64,000 nt of DNA, taken from positions 163,039 to 227,038 of the forward strand of contig QULU01000003.1 of NCBI GenBank assembly GCA_003481775.1, in the 5' to 3' direction. The stretch's first letter is position 1. Each line of letters starts with the position of its first letter. Source of the DNA: Clostridiaceae bacterium OM02-2AC (GTDB lineage Bacteria; Bacillota_I; Bacilli_A; Erysipelotrichales; Erysipelotrichaceae). The notes under the pieces were generated by a model. That model was not told the DNA's origin, searched no databases, and was given only the letters and a program-made list of their open reading frames with translations. This document shows positions 18,229 to 52,287 of this stretch, one piece after another. The position numbers and the translations under genes are program-made.

Positions 18229-18714
18229 ATGAAATACATGGGAAGCTTATATGCAGTAGATGATAAAGAACGCACGATTGCTTTTTATAAGGAGGTGTGC
18301 GGTCTTCGCGTGATACAGGATTTTGGTACAAATTTCACGATGACAGGAGGTATATCCTTTCAGATAAGAGAAAGCTGGGCGGATTTTCTGGAGAAGGAGC
18401 CTATGGATGTTCATTACGGCGGCAATGATGCGGAGCTGTATTTGGAATGTGAGGATCTGGACGCTTTTGTAAAGCTGTTAAACAGTCGTACGGATATCGT
18501 GCAGCTTCATCCGGTAAAGGAGCATGACTGGGGACAAAGAGGCATTCGTTTTTACGATCCGGACATGCACATCATCGAGGTCAGTGAACCACTGCCTGTT
18601 GTCGTCAGCCGCTTCACACAGCAGGGGATGAGCCTTTCACAGATTTCTGAGAAAATGGGATTGTCTGAACGCATGGTGAACCGTATGCTGAAAAGGAACG
18701 AAAAAAATTTATAG
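18229..18714 (+). CDS. Glyoxalase/VOC-domain protein fused to a C-terminal helix-turn-helix
   Basis: Residues 1-120 form a vicinal-oxygen-chelate domain (LYAVDDKERTIAFYKEVCGLRVIQDFG at the start; FYDPDMHIIEVSE with the metal-type Glu near the end). The last 35 residues (FTQQGMSLSQISEKMGLSERMVNRMLKR) read as a compact helix-turn-helix. A VOC sensor with a DNA-binding tail suggests a ligand-responsive regulator, or a resistance protein with self-control, rather than a plain glyoxalase. The 161-residue gene has GGGAGG before ATG 18229, its own extended -10 promoter and a weak terminator. The ligand is unknown. Confidence 0.75.
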   Translation: MKYMGSLYAVDDKERTIAFYKEVCGLRVIQDFGTNFTMTGGISFQIRESWADFLEKEPMDVHYGGNDAELYLECEDLDAFVKLLNSRTDIVQLHPVKEHDWGQRGIRFYDPDMHIIEVSEPLPVVVSRFTQQGMSLSQISEKMGLSERMVNRMLKRNEKNL

Positions 18715-23295: not shown

Positions 23296-23797
23296 AAGCC
23301 TTTACTTCTTTGAGCTTGTTAGGAATACATTTACATGCTGATGCATCTTTTGCTTTCCATGCTGGTGTATCCTATTCATTTTTGTAGAGGGTACCGCAAA
23401 GCAGCTGTTTATGGAGCACTATGAAAATCTTGAAAAATTATCCAAAATAGAAAAATACCGCCAGCGGAATCCCTCTACCTACTATGAAACAGAATGGAGT
23501 AAGGTATTGCTGCATAGAAATCATGAGGAAGACAAGGAAGTCTGAGCTTTTACACATCGTCTTTTATTCTTCCGGCAGAGGTTGTGTGCAATGTATGTTC
23601 GGCTGCTTTCACGAAGGAATTCTAAAACAGCATTCCCTACTTATGAAAGGCTCCTGTATCCTTCAAGTACATATGCAGAGCCGCTTCTATAAGCTACTGT
23701 TTGGATTTCATAAAGATAGGTATATATTTCGTAAATATGATATATATGGAAGGAAGAGCTTCTGCAATCGCTGTTATACTGATACAGGGTGATGGCA
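23296..23797. other. Intergenic region with a coding remnant
   Basis: It holds the short frame at 23411-23545, described separately, and nothing else convincing. No clear promoter for the KdpD-like gene is visible; A/T-rich TATATT and TATAT boxes lie at 23720-23755. Confidence 0.35.
23411..23545 (+). pseudogene. Short coding remnant (44 codons)
   Basis: A hydrophilic, protein-like frame (MEHYENLEKLSKIEKYRQRN, then TYYETEWSKVLLHRN) ends at a TGA at 23543. The frame is open further upstream without a start or ribosome site, reading VEGTAKQLF just before the Met. This looks like the tail of a lost gene rather than a functional one. Family not recognised. Confidence 0.3.
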
Positions 23798-25705
23798 ATG
23801 AAACAGGGTAAAATGAAAATATTCTTCGGATATTGTGCAGGTGTGGGAAAAACCTATGCCATGCTGGAAGCTGCCCATGAGCGGAGACGGGAAGGCATGG
23901 ATGTGGTTATCGGCTACATCGAAAAGCATGATCGATCAGATACGATTGCATTGATGCAGGGACTGGAGTGTATACCGTTAAAAGCGATTATGTATCATGG
24001 TATTACACTGGAGGAATTTGATTTGGATCAGGCATTGCAGCGACATCCGCAGCTGATACTGGTAGATGAGCTTGCGCATACCAATGCACATGAATCGCGG
24101 CACCCTAAGCGCTATAGTGATATTCAGGAGCTGCTGCATGCGGGAATCGATGTGTATACGACTGTGAATGTACAGCATTTGGAAAGTCTGCAGGATGTGG
24201 TTGCAGGTATTACGAGAGTGCAGGTACAGGAGCGTATTCCGGATGCTGTATTTGATGAAGCAGATCAGGTGGAGCTGGTGGATATAGAACCGGATGAGCT
24301 GCTTGAACGTCTGAAAAGAGGGAAAATCTATCATAAGACCGCCGCACAGAAGGCGATGCATAATTTTTTTGTGAGAGATAATCTCATCGCACTGCGTGAA
24401 ATAGCCTTGCGTCGTTGTGCGGATCGGGTAAATATGCGCGTCAGCCTGAAGGATCGCAAGTCCACACGGGAGCATATCCTTCTCTGTCTGAGCCCGTCCC
24501 GCAGCAATGCGCTGGTTATTCGTACCGCTGCACGCATGGCAAGTGCTTTTTTCGCAGAGTTCACGGCACTGTATGTAGAAAATGTAAACGAGGAGCCGCT
24601 TTGTCGTGAGGATTTGGAACAGCTGGAACAAAACCGACGTCTTGCGCAGCATTTTCATGCGAATATCGTATCTGTGGCAGGAGAGAATATTGCACAGCAG
24701 ATCAGTGAATATGCCAAAATCAGCGGTGTTTCCAAGATTGTTATCGGCCGTACCTCTCCCCGTCCGCACTTCCGTGCAAAAACACTGATCGATCAGCTCA
24801 CTCTGCTGGCTCCCGATCTTGATATCTATATCATTCCGGACGCTAATGTGAAGCCTGTGAAAAAGAAAAGGCGAAGGCGGATACAGCCCCATGTATTCCA
24901 TCATCGTGACTTCATGCTTGCAGTATTCTTGTTTCTGGGAGCGACCGGAATCAATTTGCTCATGTATCATTTTCAGCTGCCGGAAGCAAATATCATCATG
25001 GTATATCTTTTGGCAATCGTTTTGATTTCCTATAGCACCAGCTCCCGCGTTTATGGATTGAGTGTTTCTCTGCTGATTGTCGCCGTATTCAATTTCTTTT
25101 TTACAGCACCCCGCTTTTCCATGGAGGCATACGATCCTGCATATGCAATGACCTTTGCCGTCCTGTTTATCGTTTCCTTTATCATCAGTACCCTGACCCG
25201 AACAATGCGCATGCAGCTTAAGGTAAATGCCATGCAGGCACATCGCATGGAGCTGTTGCTGGAAACCTCACAGCAGCTGCAGCTGGCAGAGAACATGGCA
25301 CAGCTGGGTGAGGAGGCAGTCCGACAGCTGTATAAGCTGCTGAACCGTACCATCATCATATACAGTGTAAGGAATAAAACCCTACAGGAGCCAATCATTT
25401 ATCATGAGCATTTAAGTGAGGAAGAGGAACAGAAATATCTTACGGATAACGAGCGTGCTGTTGCACAATGGGTGTTAAAAAACAATCGCAAGGCCGGGGT
25501 TTCAACCAGTACGCTGCCCTATGCAAAGGCCCTGTATTATTCCATCCGAAAGAGGGAACAGGTCTATGCTGTTATTGGAATAGCTCTGCAGCAAAAGGAG
25601 GTATTGTCACCGTTTGAGCGCAGTATGCTGGCAACCATGCTGAATGAGATTGCTTTGGCAATGGATTCTATGCGCAAGCAGAATCGCAGAAGTACGAATC
25701 ATTAA
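23798..25705 (+). CDS. KdpD-like potassium sensor protein lacking the histidine-kinase domain
   Basis: The start chosen is ATG 23798, about 635 residues. Residues 1-215 are the KdpD N-terminal sensor domain with Walker A-like GYCAGVGKT (11-19) and LILVDELAHTNA. A universal-stress-protein-like domain follows (ILLCLSPSRSNALVIRTAARMASAF...IVIGRTSP, to about 350). A four-helix DUF4118 membrane segment comes next (about 370-470), then a GAF-like C-terminal domain ending at MDSMRKQNR. The HisKA and ATPase domains are absent and there is no frameshift. A second KdpD-like protein at 31.0 kb has exactly the missing part, so the two probably act together. In known KdpD the N-terminal and USP-like regions sense K+ status and bind c-di-AMP. 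Confidence 0.85.
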   Translation: MKQGKMKIFFGYCAGVGKTYAMLEAAHERRREGMDVVIGYIEKHDRSDTIALMQGLECIPLKAIMYHGITLEEFDLDQALQRHPQLILVDELAHTNAHESRHPKRYSDIQELLHAGIDVYTTVNVQHLESLQDVVAGITRVQVQERIPDAVFDEADQVELVDIEPDELLERLKRGKIYHKTAAQKAMHNFFVRDNLIALREIALRRCADRVNMRVSLKDRKSTREHILLCLSPSRSNALVIRTAARMASAFFAEFTALYVENVNEEPLCREDLEQLEQNRRLAQHFHANIVSVAGENIAQQISEYAKISGVSKIVIGRTSPRPHFRAKTLIDQLTLLAPDLDIYIIPDANVKPVKKKRRRRIQPHVFHHRDFMLAVFLFLGATGINLLMYHFQLPEANIIMVYLLAIVLISYSTSSRVYGLSVSLLIVAVFNFFFTAPRFSMEAYDPAYAMTFAVLFIVSFIISTLTRTMRMQLKVNAMQAHRMELLLETSQQLQLAENMAQLGEEAVRQLYKLLNRTIIIYSVRNKTLQEPIIYHEHLSEEEEQKYLTDNERAVAQWVLKNNRKAGVSTSTLPYAKALYYSIRKREQVYAVIGIALQQKEVLSPFERSMLATMLNEIALAMDSMRKQNRRSTNH

Positions 25706-30721: not shown

Positions 30722-31015
30722 ATGTTTATAAGAAATCATTTCAGAAATCAGAAGGTGCTGGTTGCGGGCTTTGGAAGATTTGGAGCCTGTCTGGCAGCAT
30801 TGAGTAAGGCAGGCTATGCTGTCGTGGTGATAGATAAACTGAAAAGTGCCTTTCAGCATCTGTCGGACAGCCTTCAGGGCTTTGTGATTGAGAGGAGTGC
30901 GGCGAATGTGCATGTGCTGGACTCCTGTCAGGCTGGAAATCTAAGTTGTACTGCTTGCGGCAGCAAGGCTGGTAAAGATATCCGCAGCTGTGTAAGGCGT
31001 AGGAAAACCACATGA
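30722..31015 (+). pseudogene. Truncated TrkA-N (NAD-binding potassium-channel regulator) domain
   Basis: From ATG 30722 (AAGAGG eight bases upstream) the first 70 residues match a TrkA/KtrA Rossmann domain: KVLVAGFGRFGACLAALSKAGYAVVVID and NVHVLDSCQAG. After that point the family pattern is lost. A shift of frame near 30940 would restore a better match (VVLLAAARLVKISAAV) but also stops soon. The domain is therefore cut short at about 97 residues against the usual 120-220. Its TGA overlaps the next ATG (ATGA), so it may still serve translation coupling of the sensor kinase. Confidence 0.6.
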
Positions 31016-32559
31016 AATCTGCTATAATTGGTAAGGAAATGAGGGGTCTGATGAAAAACAGTCATATATGGAAAAATCTATGCATCACTGCTGTGATTCT
31101 GTTTCTCTGCACACTGGTATCCTCTGTCTTTGATGATATAGAAATCCGTACGGAAAACATCATGCTGATTTATTTGATCGGAGTATTGCTGATCGTTGTG
31201 GAAACCAGAAGCTTTCTGTGGGGCATCACCTCCAGCCTTCTGAGTATTCTTACCTTTAATTATCTGTTTACCAATCCGACATTTTCGTTGCAAATTGATG
31301 ATTTCAATTATATTATCACGATTATCGTGTTTCTGATTGTTTCCTTTGTGACCGGCTCTCTGGTCAACAAGCTGCAGCAGCATGCCCATAAGGCCAGAAG
31401 CAGTGCCCGTCAAACCACTGCCTTATATGAAATTACGAGAGCCTATCTGACTTTGTCCGGTGTAGATACGATTTTACAGCACACGATTCGCTCACTGTAT
31501 ACTGCCCAGCAGACCATCTGTATTGTCTATTATAAAGATAAAGAGGCACTAAAGAAGATACAGGAGCCAGTGGATACCATCGCTGCGCCGGATGACGGTA
31601 TGGCGGCGTGGTGTATGGAAAAGGATTGTGACTGTGGTGGGGGAACCTCCTATTATGAAGCGCAGCCCTGGACCTATCATCCCATGCACTGCAACAATCA
31701 GCTGCTGGGTGTGTATGCGCTGTATGAGGAAACCTCCCTGCGGGAAGAACAGCGTCTGTTTGTCCATACACTGATTTCACAGATGGTAATGGCGGTGGAA
31801 CGGGAGCTGCTGTATGCGGAGCAGGAGCAAAGCAGAATCGAAATAGAAAAGGAAAAGCTGCGCAACAATCTTCTGCGCAGTATCTCTCATGATCTTCGTA
31901 CCCCTCTGACTGGGATTGCGGGAAGCAGCACGCTGATCTGCGAAAATTATCAGGATCTGGACGATGATACCATCTACCATCTGGTAAAGTCCATCAGCAG
32001 TGATGCCTTGTGGCTCAATCAGCTGGTAGAGAACTTATTGAATATGACAAGGATTCAGGATGGGAAGCTGCTGCTGAAACAGAATGAGGAGGTCGTGGAT
32101 GATATCATCTGTGAAGCCGTATCACGATGTGAAAGCAGAAAGCGGGAGCATACGCTGAGGGTGACGCTGCCGGATGAGGTTTTGCTTGTGGAAATGGATG
32201 GACGGCTGATCATACAGGTGCTTGTCAATATGATTGATAACGCCATTAAGCATACACCGGATGCGACAAGTATCGATATTCGCTGCTATAAGAATCACGA
32301 CTGGGCGGTGTTTGAGGTCATTGATCAGGGAGAAGGCATTGATGAATCCATCCGCGAGCATTTGTTTGAAAGCTTTGTGACCACCAAAAGTGAACGCAGC
32401 GATTCCAGACGCGGCGTGGGTCTTGGCTTAACCATATGCAAAAGCATAGTAGAGGCACATCACGGGGAAATCTTTGCCTATAACCGGTTGGATGTGCAGG
32501 GCGCAGTGTTCGGCTTTCAGCTGAAGCTGGCCGCAGAAAGGAAGGAATACCATGCATGA
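31012..32559 (+). CDS. KdpD-like sensor histidine kinase lacking the N-terminal sensor domain
   Basis: This 515-residue protein from ATG 31012 overlaps the previous stop; ATG 31051 is an alternative. Residues 20-115 are the four-helix DUF4118 membrane domain. A GAF-like domain spans about 130-260. HisKA carries the phospho-accepting His293 in ISHDLRTPLTGIAG. The ATPase boxes NMIDNAIKHT, VIDQGEGID and GVGLGLTICKSIVEAH are intact. The cytoplasmic KdpD and USP domains of classical KdpD (about 900 residues) are missing but exist in the separate protein at 23.8 kb. It should phosphorylate the adjacent KdpE. Confidence 0.88.
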   Translation: MKSAIIGKEMRGLMKNSHIWKNLCITAVILFLCTLVSSVFDDIEIRTENIMLIYLIGVLLIVVETRSFLWGITSSLLSILTFNYLFTNPTFSLQIDDFNYIITIIVFLIVSFVTGSLVNKLQQHAHKARSSARQTTALYEITRAYLTLSGVDTILQHTIRSLYTAQQTICIVYYKDKEALKKIQEPVDTIAAPDDGMAAWCMEKDCDCGGGTSYYEAQPWTYHPMHCNNQLLGVYALYEETSLREEQRLFVHTLISQMVMAVERELLYAEQEQSRIEIEKEKLRNNLLRSISHDLRTPLTGIAGSSTLICENYQDLDDDTIYHLVKSISSDALWLNQLVENLLNMTRIQDGKLLLKQNEEVVDDIICEAVSRCESRKREHTLRVTLPDEVLLVEMDGRLIIQVLVNMIDNAIKHTPDATSIDIRCYKNHDWAVFEVIDQGEGIDESIREHLFESFVTTKSERSDSRRGVGLGLTICKSIVEAHHGEIFAYNRLDVQGAVFGFQLKLAAERKEYHA

Positions 32560-33767: not shown

Positions 33768-33857
33768 ATGGAAATGATCGTTATATTGTTTTATGGCGTT
33801 GCCATTGTCCTGTTAGCATATTTGTTTTACATGCTGTTTAAGGGTGAATCCATATGA
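33768..33857 (+). CDS. kdpF: KdpF small subunit of the potassium pump
   Basis: This is a 29-residue, single-helix membrane peptide ([20 protein letters not shown], then YMLFKGESI) directly before kdpA, with GGAAGG upstream. Size, hydrophobicity and position match KdpF, which stabilises the KdpABC complex. Its TGA overlaps the kdpA ATG (ATGA), so the two are translationally coupled. Confidence 0.85.
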
Positions 33858-35572
33858 ACAGCGCATGGATTTTGCAGGATGTCGTTTATGTCGTGGCACT
33901 GCTTGCCATCGGATATCCGCTTGGCTGTTATATCTACAAGATTTATAACGGGGAGCAAGTAGCTCTCATGCGGGTTTTTGCACCGTTGGAGCAGTTGCTG
34001 TACCGTGTGATGGGAGTCGATGAAGAGCAACAGATGCATGCGAAAAAATATGCATCCAGCGTTTTGTGGTTTTCCTTTTTCGGATTTCTGATCGTCATGG
34101 GGCTGCATCTGGTGCAGGCATGGCTGCCGCTGAATCCAGAGCAGCTGGAAAACACCAGTCTGCATCTCGCCTACAACACAGCCGCAAGCTTTGTATCCAA
34201 TACAAACTGGCAAGCATATACCGGGGAAGTCACACTGTCCTATCTGACGCAGATGGCAGGACTTACCGTACAGAACTTTGTATCTGCGGCTACCGGAATC
34301 GCTGTTTTGTTTGTCCTATGCAGAGGCTTTGTGCGCAGGGAAACGAAAAATCTCGGGAACTTCTGGAGTGATCTTGTAAAGATTACATTGTATATTCTGC
34401 TGCCGCTGTCTGTCGTGGTATGCCTGCTTCTGGTCAGTCAGGGTGTTGTACAGACACTGGATCCGTATGCATCCTATACAACACTGGAAGGTACACAGGG
34501 CGTGTTGCCGCTGGGACCTGCGGCCAGTCAGATTGCCATCAAGCAGTTGGGCACCAATGGCGGCGGCTTCTTCGGTGTCAACGCAGCATTCCCGTATGAG
34601 AATGCAACCCCGCTGTCCAATTTTATTGAAGCGCTCTGCTTACTGCTGATACCGGCTGCTCTGTGCTTTACCTTTGGAAAAGCGGTTAAGGATACCCGAC
34701 AGGGAAAGACGATTCTTATCGTTATGACGGTGATCTTTGTTGCTGCATTGGTGGGTCTGAGCTGTGCGGAAATCTTCGGTGCTCCATCCTGGGATAGCGT
34801 AGCATCTCTTGGCGGAAGCATGGAGGGGAAGGAAACCCGCTTCGGTGTCGGTGGTAGCTCCTTGTGGGCTGCGGCAACAACTGCCGCAAGCAATGGCTCG
34901 GTAAATGCAATGCATGATTCTCTGACTCCCCTTGGCGGGATGATCACCATGTTTCTCATGCAGCTGGGTGAGGTCGTTTTTGGCGGCGTGGGCTGCGGCT
35001 TGTATGGCATGCTGGCCTTTGCCCTGCTGACGGTGTTTATGGCCGGGCTGATGGTCGGACGCACACCGGAGTACATCGGCAAAAAGATCAATGCCTTTGA
35101 TATGAAGATGGTCTGCATCATCCTTCTGGTACCGCCGCTGTGTCTGCTGCTGGCAACCGCAATCACCACCCTTTTCCCGGCTGCACAGCAGCTGCAGGCT
35201 GACGGCGGATGGCTGAGCAACACCGGAAGTCACGGTTTCTCAGAAATTCTGTATGCCTACACCTCCATGGCGGGGAACAACGGAAGTGCCTTTGCCGGTT
35301 TTCAGGCTAACACGGTGCTCACCAATGTGATGGGCGGTACGGTGATGCTGCTGGTACGCTTTCTTCCCATGGTTGCGGTTATCTATCTGGCACAGAGTCT
35401 GGCCAGTAAAAAATACGTACCGGCCGGCTCGGGAACGCTTGCGACAACATCCCCGCTGTTTGTCGGATTTCTGATTGTGATCGTGCTGATTGTCGGAGCA
35501 CTGACATTTTTGCCGGTGTTGGCGCTTGGGCCGCTTGCGGAATTCTTTACGCAGCTGCATGTACTCGGTTGA
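33854..35572 (+). CDS. kdpA: Potassium-transporting ATPase subunit KdpA
   Basis: This 572-residue polytopic membrane protein is the K+-selective channel subunit of the high-affinity KdpFABC pump. Selectivity-loop motifs of the SKT superfamily are visible ([60 protein letters not shown]). Length matches the family. It overlaps kdpF by four bases and is 18 bases before kdpB. Confidence 0.95.
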
Positions 35573-35590
35573 AAGGGCAGGTGATATGCT

Positions 35591-37648
35591 ATGAAGCAGG
35601 TAAATAAGCAGGCAGTATACAAGGATTCCATACTGCAGGCATTAAAAAAGCTGGCACCCAATGTGCAGGTGCATAATCCGGTTATGTTTATCGTTTATAT
35701 CGGGGCAATCTTTACGACAATATTGTTTGTCGCTGGTATAGGGGGGATGCAGGACGAGCCCTCCTGGTATGTATTCGTCATTGCGCTGATTTTATGGTTT
35801 ACCGTGCTATTTGCCAATTTTGCGGAGGCAATCGCAGAGGGCAGAGGACGGGCACAGGCAGAGAGCTTGAAAAAATCAAGGAAACAGGTACTTGCACATA
35901 AGCTTTCAAGCATTGCAGAGAAAGAAGCATATACCGATGTATCCTCCTCTGATTTGCAGGTGGGTGATATCTGCTATGTAAAAACAGGAGAAATTATCCC
36001 GATGGATGGGGAAGTGATAGAGGGAATCGCTTCTGTCGATGAATCGGCGATTACCGGAGAAAGTGCGCCGGTAATACGGGAATCCGGAGGCGATCGCAGT
36101 GCGGTGACCGGAGGTACCACCGTTGTGAGTGACTGGATCGTACTGCGGGTTACGGCCGCAAGCGGTGCGTCCTTTCTGGATAAGATGATTGCCATGGTTG
36201 AGGGAGCGGCACGAAAAAAGACGCCCAACGAAATTGCTTTACAGATTCTGTTGATCACTTTGACCATCATCTTTCTGATAGTTTGTGCAACGCTGCTTCC
36301 GATTTCCCGGTATGTGAGAGATATGGTGGGACAGGGGGCGGCAGTATCCCTGAGCAATGTGGTTGCCCTGCTGGTGTGTCTTGCTCCGACAACGATCGGC
36401 GCCCTTATGTCCAGTATCGGAATTGCCGGCATGTCCAGACTGAATCAGGCAAATGTACTGGCAATGAGCGGACGTGCCATTGAAGCAGCCGGGGATGTGG
36501 ATGTTCTGCTGCTGGATAAAACGGGAACGATAACGCTGGGGAACCGGCAGGCAGTTGCCTTTCAAAGCGTATCGGGGGTGCAGGAGCAGGAGCTTGCGGA
36601 AGCAGCTCAGCTGTCCTCCTTGGCGGATGAAACCGCCGAGGGAAGAAGTATCGTCGTACTCGCAAAAAAGAAGTTTCATATCCGTGAGCATCCCATGCAG
36701 CAGCTGCATGCTACATTTATCGAATTCTCCGCAAGAACCCGTATGTCCGGCATCGATATTGCCGGCGGTATGGAAATTCGCAAGGGTGCCGCAGATGCTA
36801 TCAGAAGATACGTGGAGGCTGGTGGAAACACATATCCGAAGGAGTGTGAAGCAGCTGTTCAAGCCATTGCCGAGCAGGGAGGAACACCATTGGTTGTCGC
36901 TAAAAACCATAGGGTGCTCGGTGTTATTTATCTGAAGGATATCGTAAAGGACGGCATACAGGAAAATTTTGAAGCGCTGCGCAAAAGCGGAATCAAAACG
37001 ATTATGATAACCGGGGATAATCCGATGACCGCCGCAGCCATCGCAGCGGAAGCAGGCGTGGATGATTTTGTCGCTGAGGCAACCCCGGAAACCAAGCTGG
37101 AGCTGATTCGGGAATACCAAAGAAAGGGGCATTTGGTTGCAATGACCGGAGATGGAACAAATGATGCACCGGCGCTTGCACAGGCAGATGTCGCTGTGGC
37201 AATGAATTCTGGTACACAGGCAGCAAAGGAAGCAGGCAATATGGTGGATCTGGACTCCAGTCCGACCAAGCTGATTGAGGTTGTTCGTATCGGAAAGCAG
37301 CTGCTGATGACGCGCGGGGCACTGACCACATTTTCCATTGCCAACGATGTAGCGAAGTATTTCGCCATCATACCGGTGCTGTTTATGGGAATCTTTCCCA
37401 ATCTGGCAGCGCTGAATATCATGCATCTGACAAGCGCGACCACGGCCATTCTATCCGCGGTCATCTACAATGCCGTTATTATCATAGCTTTGATTCCCTT
37501 ATCCCTGCGCGGTGTGAAATATCGGGAGCTTCCAGCGGATAAACAGCTGCGGCACAATCTGATGATATATGGCGTCGGGGGAATCATCCTTCCATTTATC
37601 GTCATCAAGCTGATCGATATGGCACTTACCATGTGTGGCATTGCTTAG
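35591..37648 (+). CDS. kdpB: Potassium-transporting P-type ATPase subunit KdpB
   Basis: This 685-residue P-type ATPase carries TGES at residues 155-158, phosphorylation site DKTGTIT with Asp309, and the hinge [22 protein letters not shown]. The shortened membrane helix with [12 protein letters not shown] fits the KdpB subclass. It hydrolyses ATP to drive K+ uptake through KdpA. AGGTGAT lies before ATG 35591. It sits between kdpA and kdpC in the usual order. Confidence 0.96.
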
Positions 37649-37659
37649 GAGGTAGAATG

Positions 37660-38235
37660 ATGAAAAAAGGAAAAAAGACATGGATTGCGGCATTGCTCTG
37701 TATTTTATCAATGACGCTGATTTGCGGATTGATCTATCCGCTGGTTATGACTGTCTCGGCATCGCTGCTGTTTCCCGAACAGGCCAAGGGCAGTCAGCTT
37801 ACGGTGACAAGAAATGGCAAAACACAGAATGTGGGATCAGCCCTGATCGGACAGTCCTGGACAAAGCCGGAGTATCTGATCGGACGTCCGAACAGCGGTG
37901 CACCGACAAACCGCAGTGCAGTATCCGATGAGCAGCAGCAGGCGGTTGCTGATTCTGTGGCATGGTGGAATGCATTTGATCCCCAAACCAAGGGAAAGGA
38001 TATACCAGAGGATCTGGTGACGGCATCCGGCAGCGGTGTCGATCCGGAAATCAGTCCGCAGGCTGCCTATTTTCAGGTAGAGCGAATCGCCCGTGTACGT
38101 AAGATATCACAACAAAGTGTTCGCAGGATTATCGATAAATACACCACAGGCAAAACCCTCGGATTTCTGGGTGAGGAACGCGTCAATGTGTTAAAGGTCA
38201 ATCTGGAGCTGGATGGCTATACAATCAACGATTAA
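37660..38235 (+). CDS. kdpC: Potassium-transporting ATPase subunit KdpC
   Basis: ATG 37660 is seven bases after AGGAGG, giving 191 residues; the upstream in-frame extension overlaps kdpB and is not used. A single N-terminal helix (WIAALLCILSMTLICGLIYPLVMT) anchors an outer domain with the family motifs GSALIGQSWTKPEYLIGRPN and SGSGVDPEISPQAAYFQVERIARVR. KdpC stabilises the complex and raises ATP affinity. Confidence 0.95.
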   Translation: MKKGKKTWIAALLCILSMTLICGLIYPLVMTVSASLLFPEQAKGSQLTVTRNGKTQNVGSALIGQSWTKPEYLIGRPNSGAPTNRSAVSDEQQQAVADSVAWWNAFDPQTKGKDIPEDLVTASGSGVDPEISPQAAYFQVERIARVRKISQQSVRRIIDKYTTGKTLGFLGEERVNVLKVNLELDGYTIND

Positions 38236-47883: not shown

Positions 47884-48201
47884 ATTGCCGTAAGCCTTTC
47901 TGCCGCCGTTTTTCTGTAGTAAGCTATGCGATAGAGTGAAAGCAGCCTGTGTGTTTCTATAGATGAACTTGATTGACGAGCTGCTGCTTAAGGAAGGGAG
48001 CCAAAAGAAAAACGGGCTGCCAATGCTGATAACAGGAGCAAGCTGCCGCATGGGGAATGCACGGTCATTTCGGTGCTGTAACAGAACGTTATTTCGTATA
48101 AGCACTGCGCTGTATTCTTGGAAAAGGGGAATGAGGCGCACAGGGATTCTCTTTCAAAACCACACAGACCTGTGGTACAATAAGCAAAAGGAAGTGAGCA
48201 T
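47884..48201. other. Gap upstream of the CorA-like gene
   Basis: No supported gene. An extended -10 TGG-TACAAT (48173-48181) lies 20 bases before the CorA-like start. Confidence 0.4.
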
Positions 48202-49122
48202 ATGCTGTATGATCTTTACCGAAAGCAGGAGACTTCCCCGCAGGAAGCAAAGGAAGGTCAGTTTTTGCTTGGCATATACAAACAGGAGGAATGGAAACCG
48301 CTTGTGGAAGCCTTCGGATTTTCACCGGCAACGCTTTTGGAGTTGGAACATATGGAGCAAAGCCGCACGCTGCATAAGCTCGACAGCTATTACGGCTACT
48401 GCTTTGGCTTTGTGCATCCGCTAAAGGTCCTAAAGCAGTCCCCCGCAGGTATCGGCATATATTGCCGGCAAAGGGAGGTTATTCTAATCAGTGAGAATAC
48501 CGAACAGCTGCTGGATTTTTATCGCCTGCTTCAGCAGCTGCCAACAGCACAGCTCAGTGCTGAGCATGTTCTTTCGCTGCTTTTTGAATATCTCTTGAAG
48601 AAGCATAAGGAGGAGCACGATCAGCTGGAGGATTTGATTGAGGAGCTGGACAATGATGTTCTGAATGATCATTTGCAGAATTTCAATCAGCGAATCACCG
48701 GAATACGAAACAGGATTCGCTACCTTCTGCAATATGACGAGCAGTTCAGCGATGTATGCGAGGAGCTGCTGGAGGATGAAAATGATCTGTTCGCCAGAGA
48801 GCATCTGCATCATCTTCGCATTTGTTCTGACAGAGTGGAGCGACTGGGACAGCACACGCGTATCCTGCGGGATTACAGTGTACAGGTTCGTGAGTCCTAT
48901 CAGGCGCAGGTGGATATCCGCTTGAATCGCATGATGTATATATTCACAATCGTTACCGTGATTTTTCTGCCGTTGACGCTGATCGTCGGCTGGTATGGCA
49001 TGAATTTCATCGGAATGCCGGAGCTGCATTGGAGGTATGGATATCCCTTTGTCATCATCCTTTCCCTTGCTTCCATCGGCATCTGTGTGTGGTTTATTTA
49101 TAGGAAACGGATACGAAAATAG
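48202..49122 (+). CDS. CorA-like Mg2+/divalent-cation transporter
   Basis: This 306-residue protein from ATG 48202 is preceded by AAAAGGAAG. A soluble N-terminal alpha/beta domain (about 1-130) and a long coiled stalk helix (LLKKHKEEHDQLEDLIEELDND onward) lead to two C-terminal membrane helices. The signature YGMNF follows TM1 (TIVTVIFLPLTLIVGWYGMNF). The tail is basic. It forms a pentameric Mg2+ channel in the cell membrane. It is monocistronic with its own extended -10 promoter. Confidence 0.9.
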   Translation: MLYDLYRKQETSPQEAKEGQFLLGIYKQEEWKPLVEAFGFSPATLLELEHMEQSRTLHKLDSYYGYCFGFVHPLKVLKQSPAGIGIYCRQREVILISENTEQLLDFYRLLQQLPTAQLSAEHVLSLLFEYLLKKHKEEHDQLEDLIEELDNDVLNDHLQNFNQRITGIRNRIRYLLQYDEQFSDVCEELLEDENDLFAREHLHHLRICSDRVERLGQHTRILRDYSVQVRESYQAQVDIRLNRMMYIFTIVTVIFLPLTLIVGWYGMNFIGMPELHWRYGYPFVIILSLASIGICVWFIYRKRIRK

Positions 49123-49635
49123 GGGCAATTCGAGTGTTTTGAAACGATCGATGTGTCGTTTTCCTGTTGAAGCCTTCCTGCCATATGCAGGAGATATCGG
49201 CTATATACATATGGGAAGGGACATAGCGGCATATGGAAATCGTTCATGATTCCTTGTACAGGCTGTGGACAGAGATAGTCATAGCGATCATCAGAGAAAA
49301 CGGCAGGGGCTATGGTCTTCGAAAATCCGTCCGGTATAGGAAACGTGTATGGTATGCTCAAACGTACACAAGTGAATCACCGCTATAATAGGAAAGATAA
49401 GGCGGGTAAGGCTTTACCTTATCGTATGCTTCTTCTTTTCCACGGTATGTTTATACTGCTATGATTTACGTTCACGAATGCTCGTGCTATTCTGTTTATA
49501 AAGGACGATTTCCGGTCCTTCTTTTCTTATGCTGCTGAGGGCTGTTTTTCTAATATCAGAAAATATCATTTCATCCATAAAATGCAGCGCTTATGTACTT
49601 AAAAGACATATCCTGTATTTTTTTAAAAATAAAAG

Positions 49636-49664
49636 TTGACAAAGGCTAACACATAGTGTATTCT
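49636..49664 (+). promoter_or_regulatory. Strong promoter of the candidate small RNA
   Basis: Perfect -35 TTGACA (49636-49641), 17-base spacer, -10 TATTCT (49659-49664), and an upstream A/T tract that could act as an UP element. Confidence 0.75.
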
Positions 49665-49676
49665 ATAGGGGAAGAA

Positions 49677-49692
49677 GTTAGATAAAACTAAC
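49677..49692. promoter_or_regulatory. GTTAG-N6-CTAAC palindrome at the small-RNA start
   Basis: GTTAG-ATAAAA-CTAAC lies just after the predicted transcription start, where a repressor would block transcription. TTAG/CTAA symmetry is reminiscent of DtxR/IdeR-type metal-repressor sites. The assignment is inference only. Confidence 0.45.
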
Positions 49693-49787
49693 AAGACTGC
49701 AGAGCGTTCCTTTCTCACGTACTGCTGAATTGTTTCCTCTATAACTTTACAACCAAACATATCATCATCTGACTTCTATTCCTGAAA

Positions 49788-49812
49788 GGCGGTTTCCTCG
49801 ACCGTCTTTTTT
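49788..49812 (+). terminator. Terminator of the candidate small RNA
   Basis: GGCGGT (49788-49793) pairs with ACCGTC (49801-49806) around TTCCTCG, followed by six T. Confidence 0.75.
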
Positions 49813-50047
49813 AGTCCTTCTCAATATTGGATGACAGCGGTATGGAAACTGTGCTGTATCTTTTTCGCGAAGCTTGTGGGTCAAAATAGAAGCTATCGCA
49901 TCGCTAAGAACTGCCACGCTCTTTCTTGGACCTAACGGGTAAGTGTAAGGGCTATCTTAAAAAACATCGGAAAAACACGTAAAATCCGATGGGAGAAGCG
50001 GGAAAAGTATGGTAAGATTATAGCGCAAGTGAGGAGTGTGTGTTGCT

Positions 50048-51937
50048 ATGGCTTTTTTACCAACGACCAGAGAGGAAATGCTGGAGCAGGGATTTGAGAG
50101 TGTTGATTTTGTTTATGTGAGCGGGGATGCCTATGTGGATCATCCATCCTTTGGCTGTGCAATCATAACTAGGACACTGCAGGCATACGGCTACAGCTGT
50201 GCTGTTTTGCCGCAGCCCGACTGGCATAATGATGATGAATTTACACAATTCGGGGAGCCGCGTCTGGGGTTTCTTGTTTCTGCCGGAAATATTGATTCCA
50301 TGGTGAATCATTATTCTGTCAATAAACGAAGAAGAGATAAGGATTCCTACAGTGATGAGGGCGTTATGGGAAAGCGTCCCGATCGTCCGACCATTGTCTA
50401 TACGCAGATAGTAAAGCGTCTGTTTCCGCATAAGCCGGTGCTGATTGGCGGTATTGAGGCAAGTCTGCGACGTCTTTCTCATTATGATTACTGGGATGAT
50501 AAGGTACGCAGAAGCATCCTCATTGATTCGCAGGCTGATTTATTGATGTATGGGATGGGAGAAAACACCATCATCGAGGTTGCCGATGCATTAAACAGCG
50601 GACTGCGGGCGGAGGATCTCTGCTATATCCGGGGAACCTGCTGGAAAACCAAATCTTTGGAGTATCTGAGCGATTATGTGCTGCTGCCCTCCTATGAAGA
50701 GGTGTGTGCCGATAAGCATACATATGCAAAGAGCTTTCACATACAGCATGAAAATATTGACGCCATCGCTGCCAGTGTGCTGGTGGAGCCGTATGACGGC
50801 TGGTACGTCGTGCAGAATCAGCCTCCGCTGCCACTGACGCAGGAGGAAATGGATTTCACCTATTCTCTGCCGTATGAGCGCACCTATCATCCGCGCTATA
50901 CATATATTCCTGCAATCGAGGAGGTACAGTTTTCCATTGTCAGCAACCGCGGCTGCTTCGGCTCCTGCGCGTTCTGTGCCATCACGCATCATCAGGGACG
51001 TGTGATTTCAACAAGAAGCAAGGATTCGATCGTCGATGAAGCGAAGCGTATTACAGAAATGCCGAATTTCAAGGGATATATTCATGATGTCGGAGGACCG
51101 ACTGCCAATTTTTCAAGAGAAGCCTGCGATAAACAGCGGGAATACGGTGCGTGTAAGAATCGGGAGTGCCTGTTTCCCAAGGGCTGTGCAAATTTAAAGG
51201 TGGATCACAGCCGCTATCTGGAAATCCTTCGCGCAGTGCGCACACTTCCAAGAGTAAAAAAGGTGTTTATCCGTTCCGGTATTCGCTATGATTATCTGAT
51301 GTATGATAAAAATGATGAATTTTTCGATGAGCTTGTCCAGCATCATATCAGCGGCCAGCTGAAGGTGGCTCCCGAGCATATCAATGCAGCGGTACTGGAT
51401 AAAATGGGAAAGCCGAGAAAAGAGCTGTATCTGAAGTTTGTGGATAAATTCAAGCAGAAGAATGAGCAGTTCAACAAGAATCAGTTTATTGTTCCTTATC
51501 TTATGAGCTCCCATCCGGGCAGTGATCTGCAGGCGGCAATCGAGCTGGCCTGCTATCTGAAAAAAATCCGGTATACACCGAAGCAGGTTCAGGATTTCTA
51601 TCCGACACCGGGGACACCGGCAACCTGTATGTATTATACCGGTCTGGATCCGAAGACGATGCGTCCGGTTTATGTTGCGAGAACCTATGAGGAAAAAGCG
51701 ATGCAGCGGGCATTGATGCAGTTTACCTATCCGCAAAATTATGATCTTGTCTACAAGGCATTAAAGACAGCCGGCCGTATGGATCTGGTGGGAAATTCAC
51801 CAAAATGTCTGATACCGTATCGCAAGGGGCATACCGGAAATGGCTTTGCCGGCGGCAAGCAGAAAGAGCAGCACAGAAAGCCCTATGCGAAAAAAGCAGG
51901 CGGACATCAGCCGGAGCGAAAGGGGAAACGCTCATGA
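50048..51937 (+). CDS. YgiQ-family radical SAM protein
   Basis: ATG 50048 (MAFLPTTREEML) gives 629 residues, with GAGGAG about eleven bases upstream. An N-terminal YgiQ domain (FVYVSGDAYVDHPSFG) precedes the radical SAM core with the Cys-x3-Cys-x2-Cys cluster motif in NRGCFGSCAFCAI (near residue 305). A second Cys-rich segment (CKNRECLFPKGCANL) and a basic tail follow. The reaction catalysed by YgiQ enzymes is not established. Its stop overlaps the lrgA start. Confidence 0.92.
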   Translation: MAFLPTTREEMLEQGFESVDFVYVSGDAYVDHPSFGCAIITRTLQAYGYSCAVLPQPDWHNDDEFTQFGEPRLGFLVSAGNIDSMVNHYSVNKRRRDKDSYSDEGVMGKRPDRPTIVYTQIVKRLFPHKPVLIGGIEASLRRLSHYDYWDDKVRRSILIDSQADLLMYGMGENTIIEVADALNSGLRAEDLCYIRGTCWKTKSLEYLSDYVLLPSYEEVCADKHTYAKSFHIQHENIDAIAASVLVEPYDGWYVVQNQPPLPLTQEEMDFTYSLPYERTYHPRYTYIPAIEEVQFSIVSNRGCFGSCAFCAITHHQGRVISTRSKDSIVDEAKRITEMPNFKGYIHDVGGPTANFSREACDKQREYGACKNRECLFPKGCANLKVDHSRYLEILRAVRTLPRVKKVFIRSGIRYDYLMYDKNDEFFDELVQHHISGQLKVAPEHINAAVLDKMGKPRKELYLKFVDKFKQKNEQFNKNQFIVPYLMSSHPGSDLQAAIELACYLKKIRYTPKQVQDFYPTPGTPATCMYYTGLDPKTMRPVYVARTYEEKAMQRALMQFTYPQNYDLVYKALKTAGRMDLVGNSPKCLIPYRKGHTGNGFAGGKQKEQHRKPYAKKAGGHQPERKGKRS

Positions 51938-52287
51938 AAATCTTTCGTGAGGTGCTTGTGATCTTCGGACTGTATTACGCCGGAGAGCTGATTAGTAAGA
52001 CGCTGTCCCTGCCGCTTCCCGGAAGTCTGGTGGGCATGATCCTGCTGTTTGTTCTGCTGCAGCTGCATATCGTAGAGCTAAAGCAGATTGCGACGGTTTC
52101 CGATTTTCTGCTGGGGCATCTGCCGTTTTTCTTTCTTCCTGCCGGGGTGGCGCTGATGGCGAGCTTTTCTGCGATGGAGGGCTTATGGATCTGGATGCTG
52201 GTCATCTGTCTGGTGACGACGATGATTACGATGGGCTGCAGCGGGCGCATCATTCAGCATATGATGGAAAGGAAATCGAAGCCATGA
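51934..52287 (+). CDS. lrgA: LrgA/CidA-family membrane protein
   Basis: ATG 51934 forms ATGA with the YgiQ stop and has AAAGGGGA upstream, giving 117 residues. Four hydrophobic helices and the family signature (SLPLPGSLVGMILLFVLLQ, then LLGHLPFFFLPAGVALM) identify the holin-like LrgA/CidA family. With LrgB it forms the pair that modulates murein-hydrolase activity or pyruvate uptake. I cannot separate LrgA from CidA by sequence alone. Confidence 0.88.
   Translation: MKIFREVLVIFGLYYAGELISKTLSLPLPGSLVGMILLFVLLQLHIVELKQIATVSDFLLGHLPFFFLPAGVALMASFSAMEGLWIWMLVICLVTTMITMGCSGRIIQHMMERKSKP

Follow-up and report, generated by a model that had tools for sequence, protein, structure and literature searches.

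A predicted small RNA gene between corA and ygiQ

Does the gap between a CorA family gene and a ygiQ-type gene in a bacterium of the Erysipelotrichaceae encode a regulatory RNA and, if it does, what controls the RNA and what does the RNA control? The stretch of DNA analysed here (the window, 64,000 nucleotides) carries on its plus strand, at 49636-49812, a TTGACA box (49636-49641), 17 bases, a TATTCT box (49659-49664), and then ATAGGGGAAGAAGTTAGATAAAACTAAC; about 90 bases further on comes a terminator stem of 11 pairs followed by T's. The upstream neighbour on the same strand is of the CorA family (48202-49122; PF01544), and the downstream neighbour is a ygiQ-type radical SAM protein (50054-51937; PF08497, PF11842, and PF04055). 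An earlier note on this DNA had proposed a stand-alone small RNA here, and the promoter, the palindrome, the terminator, and the absence of ATG that it reported for 49636-49812 are all present in the sequence.

The two boxes form a sigma-A-type promoter (49636-49664, plus strand). With 10 of 12 matches, it scores highest among the 6 promoter-like sites of 48000-52000, but since shuffles of that region yield 6.2 (sd 2.5) such sites, the match by itself is within chance. The predicted RNA (49671-49812, plus strand) would be about 142 nt long because its start is predicted near 49671 from the -10 box, and its end is set by the intrinsic terminator at 49784-49812 (plus strand; stem at 49784-49810, then T's). 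A simple scan for terminators did not list the one at 49784-49812. The transcript has an ATG in none of its frames.

No match was found in the 64-kb window with the 4227 models of Rfam release 15 at the gathering score, nor at up to E = 10 in 49100-50100, where no known leader family appeared either. As the Rfam models do not recognise this RNA, automatic annotation would overlook it.

Conservation among relatives

The region from 49620 to 49830 was compared by blastn with 272 genomes of the family. A match at E <= 0.01 was seen in 25 of these genomes, and all but three of the matches were short. The long ones, in genomes G018, G202, and G177, have E-values from 5.7e-11 to 2.5e-6. The shorter ones include a 67-base match in G017, and direct reading of the corA-ygiQ interval of that genome located the entire RNA, at the same position as in the window. 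A model (R1) built from these five sequences (the window, G018, G202, G177, and G017) identified the same RNA in 4 of the 315 genomes of the order, three of which blastn had found independently. The four relatives score 115-132 bits as training sequences, and two other genomes of the 315 score 34 and 33 bits; as in every R1 search of more than 40 genomes, stricter filters applied, and these lose weak matches. Because the R1 bit scores come from training sequences, the independent support consists of the blastn E-values and the common gene order. Both of the weak R1 matches were rejected as copies of the RNA: the one in G005 (contig C25) is an operator-bearing flavodoxin promoter, and the one in G293 (contig C53) has, by eye, the operator and the promoter alone in common with it.

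The promoter is kept in all four relatives, and so is the unit of predicted promoter, palindrome, and following terminator, the last being a terminator-like stem and T-run of differing sequence (judged by reading). Within the 931 nt between corA and ygiQ, the RNA block is the sole part that aligns to all four. Apart from it, G017 aligns with a promoter-like block just 5' of ygiQ, and G177 shows a 21-base match (E 0.03); other parts could hardly align to G018 and G202, since just short flanks of those two were compared. In this comparison, it is the conservation in four relatives that raises the whole arrangement above chance. The locus is thus very probably a real, conserved small RNA gene that Rfam models do not recognise, and the proposal of a stand-alone RNA is supported by the conserved order of promoter, palindrome, and terminator.

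How widely the RNA occurs was also approached through its neighbours. With ygiQ as bait, 80 loci from other genomes were fetched, the closest records being Erysipelotrichales, and blastn found the RNA in none of the 80. No operator (at most one mismatch) was present in up to 900 bases upstream at the 19 loci inspected, and eleven of these ygiQ-bearing genomes, searched whole, gave chance-level matches alone (best E 0.116). Phage records gave five short matches covering at most 21% of the query, plasmid records gave none, and CorA used as bait in viral contigs found none.

The gene order bears on what kind of RNA this is. It lies directly before ygiQ in three of the five genomes (the window, G177, and G017), as might be expected if it acted in cis on this radical-SAM gene as a leader or attenuator; a related possibility is an iron-regulated RNA that binds a protein instead of pairing with distant mRNAs. 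However, the RNA lies upstream of CidA/LrgA-like genes in G018 (a kind of gene found after ygiQ in the window) and between unrelated genes in G202, both by reading, so the constant downstream gene of a ygiQ leader or riboswitch is missing. Also, the terminator ends the RNA about 240 bases upstream of ygiQ, which has a separate promoter-like block of its own just 5' of it (about 50002-50028, kept in G017), and no leader in Rfam matches. A cis-acting or protein-binding RNA is therefore unlikely.

The palindrome and its regulon

The palindrome, GTTAGATAAAACTAAC, is an exact GTTAG-N6-CTAAC repeat at 49677-49692 (plus strand). It had been placed at the start site; the repeat is exact as described, but it covers positions from about +6 to +21 relative to the predicted start. 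It occurs once in the 64 kb, where a Markov-1 model gives a mean of 0.01 and, over 300 simulations, never more than 1 copy. Among the relatives it is exact in G177 and G017 and has one mismatch in G018 and G202. This site is referred to here as operator 2, since there is an imperfect copy with two mismatches, operator 1 (GTTGACAAAGGCTAAC; 49635-49650, plus strand), that overlaps the -35 box. The centres of the two are 42 bp apart in the window.

The operator-1 pattern, GTTGACNNAGGYTAAC, is found in five of the 272 genomes: at the RNA promoters of G018, G177, and G202, at a FecCD promoter of G017, and in G034, where it was rejected as a promoter operator because it lies inside coding sequence (by reading). 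The RNA of G017 carries GTTGACAAAGACTAAC at operator 1, one change from GTTGACNNAGGYTAAC, and the FecCD promoter of the same genome carries the operator pair of this RNA, with operator 1 identical letter for letter.

To what genes does the palindrome belong? Exact sites were counted in eight genomes (G001, G002, G006, G017, G018, G177, G202, and G220) with one placement rule for all sites. There are 25 copies of GTTAG-N6-CTAAC and 32 of the reversed control CAATC-N6-GATTG, so the palindrome is not commoner than its control; only its placement differs. None of the 25 palindromes lies more than 130 nt inside a frame, compared to 23 of the 32 control sites. Fifteen of the 25 precede, by reading, genes for feoA/feoB (8), FecB/FecCD (3), a NEAT-domain protein (2), or the NrdI flavodoxin (2). 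The other ten comprise seven before ABC, ECF, CbiQ, or MATE transporters, two at this RNA (G017 and G177), and one, in G220 (contig C12), with no gene start nearby. A Pfam scan of representatives returned FeoA, FeoB_N, Peripla_BP_2, FecCD (twice), Flavodoxin_NdrI, and NEAT, as well as DUF3793, Trep_Strep (twice), ABC (twice), MatE, and CbiQ; the remaining neighbours were assigned by resemblance. The 32 control sites, by reading, showed no iron-uptake genes beside them. The palindrome thus stands upstream of iron genes in genomes that have a DtxR-family protein, as a DtxR/IdeR operator would, and judged by this placement it behaves as an iron operator. These bacteria very probably use this iron operator to control the small RNA as well.

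A few other sites carry the operator. In G018, two operators (C32, 1041 and 1098; L127) precede the gene of a NEAT-domain protein. At the G220 site (C12, 99388-99403; L098/L200), the identical GTTAGATAAAACTAAC follows a promoter-like sequence, with a terminator-like stem roughly 100 nt on, a C-rich stretch (TCTTCCCCTT) between palindrome and stem, and no gene start within 400 nt of the palindrome; this is possibly a second, unrelated iron-regulated small RNA. Likewise, the weak R1 match in G293 (C53, 247-336; L307; 32.7 bits) consists of a promoter and GTTAGTTAAAGCTAAC, and the next listed frame, by appearance a DeoR-type regulator, is over 200 nt off. This, too, could be a small RNA governed by that operator.

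The candidate repressor

The DtxR-family domain PF02742 was found in all nine genomes tested, with 13 matches overall. One family member, of 122-124 residues, is common to the four relatives (G177, G017, G018, and G202); the gene beside it we take to be ArsC/Spx-like. In G005, a DtxR-family gene (by Pfam) stands behind NrdI-flavodoxin- and DUF3793-like genes that are fronted by exact operators, and a feoB-like gene with one-mismatch operators adjoins this row (neighbours named by resemblance). The hint of a DtxR-type repressor in the earlier note is therefore strengthened by the palindromes before iron-uptake genes and by DtxR-family genes in the same genomes, once in the same row of genes. 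As far as such co-occurrence goes, the operator is tied to the DtxR protein family, without pointing to a particular paralog.

Metal regulation had likewise been proposed, and the regulon supports it, pointing to iron, with two operators in place of the one described. Could the operators answer instead to another metal or regulator, such as manganese through an MntR-like protein, heme, or Fur, leaving the RNA unresponsive to iron? The DtxR family does include manganese sensors, and seven of the operator sites front transporters with no assigned substrate. Set against this are the eight sites at feoA/feoB, the three at FecB/FecCD, and the two at a NEAT gene, all for uptake of iron or heme iron, as well as the operators at flavodoxin, which is the usual iron-saving replacement. 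Judged by these neighbours, control by another metal or regulator is quite unlikely, and the evidence points to iron as the metal.

The G005 row (C25, 3410-4825; L193) is a compact iron regulon in itself: it has four operators, of which two are exact and two have one mismatch, and a third imperfect copy lies over the -35 box.

Predicted fold and anatomy of the RNA

The predicted fold of 49670-49812 has an energy of -36.7 kcal/mol compared to -22.5 (sd 3.3) in 200 shuffles (z = -4.26), more stable than each of them. Without the terminator, z drops to -1.84 in the window and to -2.29, -1.51, -1.31, and -1.93 in the relatives, so the terminator accounts for much of this stability.

The RNA is closed by a stem, P1, with its 5' arm, GAAGUUAGAU, at 49674-49683 and its 3' arm, AUCUGACUUC, at 49767-49776 (both plus strand); the 5' arm overlaps operator 2. 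Pairing of GAAGUUAGAU with AUCUGACUUC is common to the five RNAs, except that G202 has CUAACUUC in place of AUCUGACUUC. All 49 of the 49 cells in the five sequences are paired, a proportion that falls to 14-47% when the arms are slid by one to three columns. The only variation is a single U-G to U-A change. Because the stem hardly varies, P1 has conservation behind it and no support from covariation. Inside P1, a hairpin, P2 (49699-49725, plus strand), is predicted to display the C/U-rich loop UUCCUUUCUC (49707-49716). Single-sequence folds of the other RNAs also place a hairpin nearby, though weakly in G177 and without conservation of its sequence. Comparison of the five RNAs then gives a conserved core, UUUCCUCUAUAACUUUACAACC (49733-49754, plus strand), mostly single-stranded and proposed as the pairing element. 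The best conserved strand lies before the 3' arm of P1; it reads TTTCCTCTATAACTTTACAACC in the window, and its TTTACAACC is invariant in all five.

Which part of the RNA would pair? Three C/U-rich segments had been suggested for pairing with ribosome sites. All three are present in 49636-49812, but the third is the terminator loop, and the C/U runs upstream of the terminator add up to a length that is ordinary for this composition (p = 0.113, 2000 shuffles). What stands of the suggestion is one C/U patch, beside the invariant UUUACAACC, which is likely to be the main pairing element.

A different use of the same sequence would be a short conserved reading frame, or a dual-function RNA, encoding a peptide of 11-15 residues that ends in Pro-Leu-stop, with the pairing signals secondary. 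By reading, frames that begin ATG AGA are present in G018, G202, and G177 (11, 15, and 15 residues) and end in Pro-Leu-stop at CTNTAA, and a frame in the window ends in ...SVPFSRTAELFPL*, though it has no ATG. However, the window lacks ATG in every frame, G017 lacks a corresponding frame (by reading), no good ribosome site was seen upstream of the frames, and UUUACAACC and the 3' arm of P1, where conservation is highest, lie downstream of the stop. A coding or dual-function RNA of this kind is very unlikely.

Predicted targets

Since the invariant core suggested pairing of this kind, its complement, GGTTGTAAA, was sought before start codons. Throughout the target tests, the limits of the core were set by hand and the start codons picked by a simple rule. 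In the four RNA-bearing genomes, the core-complement pattern precedes ATG 49 times compared to 35 for the reversed pattern. Reading covered 48 of the 49 hits, the remaining one being the RNA itself. Ten hits open frames of 80 or more codons, eight of them inside a frame already open 44 or more codons upstream. Two hits resemble real gene starts, one of a rubrerythrin (G018) and one of a glutamate-5-kinase-like gene (G177).

The tests were then extended to orthologs of the G018 rubrerythrin (MELKGSKTEQN type) in G017, G202, and G177. As background, gene starts were sampled from each genome (178 in G177, 161 in G017, 162 in G202, and 112 in G018). By duplex energy, this rubrerythrin comes first of 113 in G018, the genome of discovery, and first of 162 in G017; in G202 it is third of 163, and in G177 it is 15th of 179; the three non-discovery ranks combine to about 0.001 by Fisher's method. 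The summed energy in those three genomes was reached by 0 of 1000 sets of shuffled cores (singly, by 32 of 1000 in G177, 2 in G202, and 6 in G017), in a test that is uncalibrated on background genes and in which any C/U-rich core favours ribosome sites. Contiguous pairing extends to 9 bases in G177, matched or exceeded by 4 of 178 background starts, and to 10 in both G018 (2 of 113, itself counted) and G017 (3 of 161). The longest such run in G202 is 7 bases, a length that 31 of 162 background starts reach.

The pairing in G017 is an example of a core and a target that differ together. The core is altered (TTCTTTTACA) and the target is correspondingly altered (TGTAAAAGAA); the predicted energy is -22.5 kcal/mol with its own RNA and -14.7 to -16.9 with the other four. 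When RNAs are swapped among genomes, the targets of G202 and G017 alone prefer their own RNA: the G177 target reaches -17.8 with its own and -19.3 to -19.9 with those of the window, G018, and G202, and the G018 target does best with the RNA of the window.

Two further proteins were named before testing. Pyruvate:ferredoxin oxidoreductase (PFOR) ranks 3 of 163, 12 of 113, and 38 of 162, which Fisher's method combines to about 0.02; no PFOR gene was found in G177. No shuffled-core set of 1000 reaches its summed energy, and singly 2, 5, and 99 of 1000 do. Aconitase, a textbook target, is unsupported (77 of 163, 157 of 163, and 144 of 179); a fourth locus was dropped because the script took a neighbouring gene, and two genomes have no member. 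A second rubrerythrin paralog is also unsupported, ranking 40 of 114, 11 of 163, and 28 of 162; the tests covered all but three weaker ones of the ten rubrerythrin-family matches. Among 48 genes of the window scored as targets, ygiQ comes 18th, and a VOC-type protein (by reading) at 18229 comes first, with -22.6 kcal/mol.

Of the genes tested, one rubrerythrin has a start region complementary to the core, and PFOR does so less clearly. Both proteins are rich in iron, and they serve in anaerobic oxygen defence and in pyruvate metabolism. On this complementarity, the small RNA probably acts in trans on the mRNAs of iron proteins.

A model for the RNA and its likeness to known systems

Comparison of genomes supplies the conservation, the operator regulon, the presence of DtxR-family genes, and the target complementarity. 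Taken with these, we consider it rather probable that the locus is a DtxR-repressed, iron-sparing, trans-acting small RNA that works like FsrA, IsrR, and MrsI. In such a model, ample iron would cause a short DtxR-family repressor that depends on iron, whose identity we infer along with the response to iron, to occupy two operators and block transcription, as membership in the regulon suggests. Operator 1 over the -35 box and operator 2 just past the start would be its two seats. As iron falls, the repressor would release the DNA, and the RNA would be transcribed as far as the terminator. It would then fold shut through the ten pairs of P1, the stem that overlaps operator 2 with its 5' arm, and display the C/U patch in a hairpin loop together with the conserved strand UUUCCUCUAUAACUUUACAACC. 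In the mRNAs of iron-rich proteins, foremost the one rubrerythrin and probably PFOR, this strand would pair in the region of the ribosome-binding site. Such pairing would lower translation of the targets, which is an iron-sparing response; this repression, and any chaperone, we infer.

Similar strategies have been described in other bacteria. In the passages cited here, the iron-sparing RNAs FsrA, IsrR, and RyhB are under Fur, and MrsI of mycobacteria has an IdeR box (PMC9410917, PMC12871923, PMC8628891). IsrR of Staphylococcus has its own sigma-A promoter and terminator, repressor boxes in the promoter and just after the start, and single-stranded C-rich regions aimed at the Shine-Dalgarno regions of mRNAs for iron enzymes (PMC9410917). 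The RNA here is alike in its own predicted promoter and terminator, in the placing of its two boxes, and in C-rich single strands that would be directed toward ribosome sites, with iron enzymes as predicted targets. IsrR is controlled by Fur, whereas the boxes here are GTTAG-N6-CTAAC in genomes bearing DtxR-family genes, and the particular predicted targets differ.

FsrA of Bacillus subtilis, which is 84 nt long, under Fur, and helped by FbpABC, is derepressed on iron starvation and pairs with iron-protein mRNAs (PMC12871923). The present RNA is also a small RNA of a Firmicute, for which derepression and target pairing would be similar, but it is about 142 nt long and has putative DtxR-type operators; a sequence relation, judged by the Rfam scan alone, gave no match. 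RyhB of enteric bacteria follows the rule that with the iron repressor off, the small RNA is on and iron proteins are down (PMC12871923). It depends on Fur and Hfq, and the RNA here, which matches nothing through Rfam, would share its regulatory logic. The earlier comparison with FsrA and RyhB would therefore hold as a likeness in working, with no homology by Rfam.

A parallel for the operator is MrsI (ncRv11846) of Mycobacterium, an iron-sparing RNA with a box for IdeR, a DtxR-family protein, in its promoter and the iron-storage gene bfrA as a target (PMC8628891). The iron-sparing logic and the DtxR-family type of box would be shared; MrsI differs in being mycobacterial, about 100 nt long, and equipped with a six-base seed, and here too the sequence relation was judged by Rfam alone. 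The DtxR sites of Corynebacterium diphtheriae are, in the text cited, inverted repeats of the form TTAGG.../...CTAA before iron genes (PMC524172). The half-sites are related, and the putative operators here have a GTTAG half-site and a fixed six-base spacer. The strategy is thus known in other bacteria; the RNA that carries it here would work like IsrR, FsrA, MrsI, and RyhB but is filed in none of their families.

Among the literature matches listed, including a functional genome comparison returned for Erysipelotrich- and small RNAs, nothing described such an RNA or regulon in this clade. A search for Clostridium innocuum with DtxR returned no match, and matches for rubrerythrin with sRNA, small RNA, or iron limitation concern, as listed, other organisms. 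If the model is correct, the Erysipelotrichales, which are Firmicutes, would have an iron small RNA of the DtxR type, a hint that bacteria reached this solution anew with a different repressor. The iron response of these bacteria would also gain an operator, candidate repressors, and candidate targets.

A more specific reading can be offered as a possibility, though a doubtful one. The RNA would represent a new Erysipelotrichales family of DtxR-repressed iron-sparing RNAs that chiefly cut rubrerythrin and PFOR. Its core and the rubrerythrin leader would have changed together in G017, and the DNA operator would double as a strand of P1. The operator would also have recruited several small RNAs independently, since other lineages may carry unrelated RNAs (the G220 and G293 sites).

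Another feature of the window

Away from this locus, a KdpD-like N-terminal part (23789-25705) and a sensor-kinase-like part (31012-32559) are separated by about 5 kb that contains other genes, and kdpABC-like genes are nearby (33854-38235). Judging from the translations, kdpD may be split in the window.
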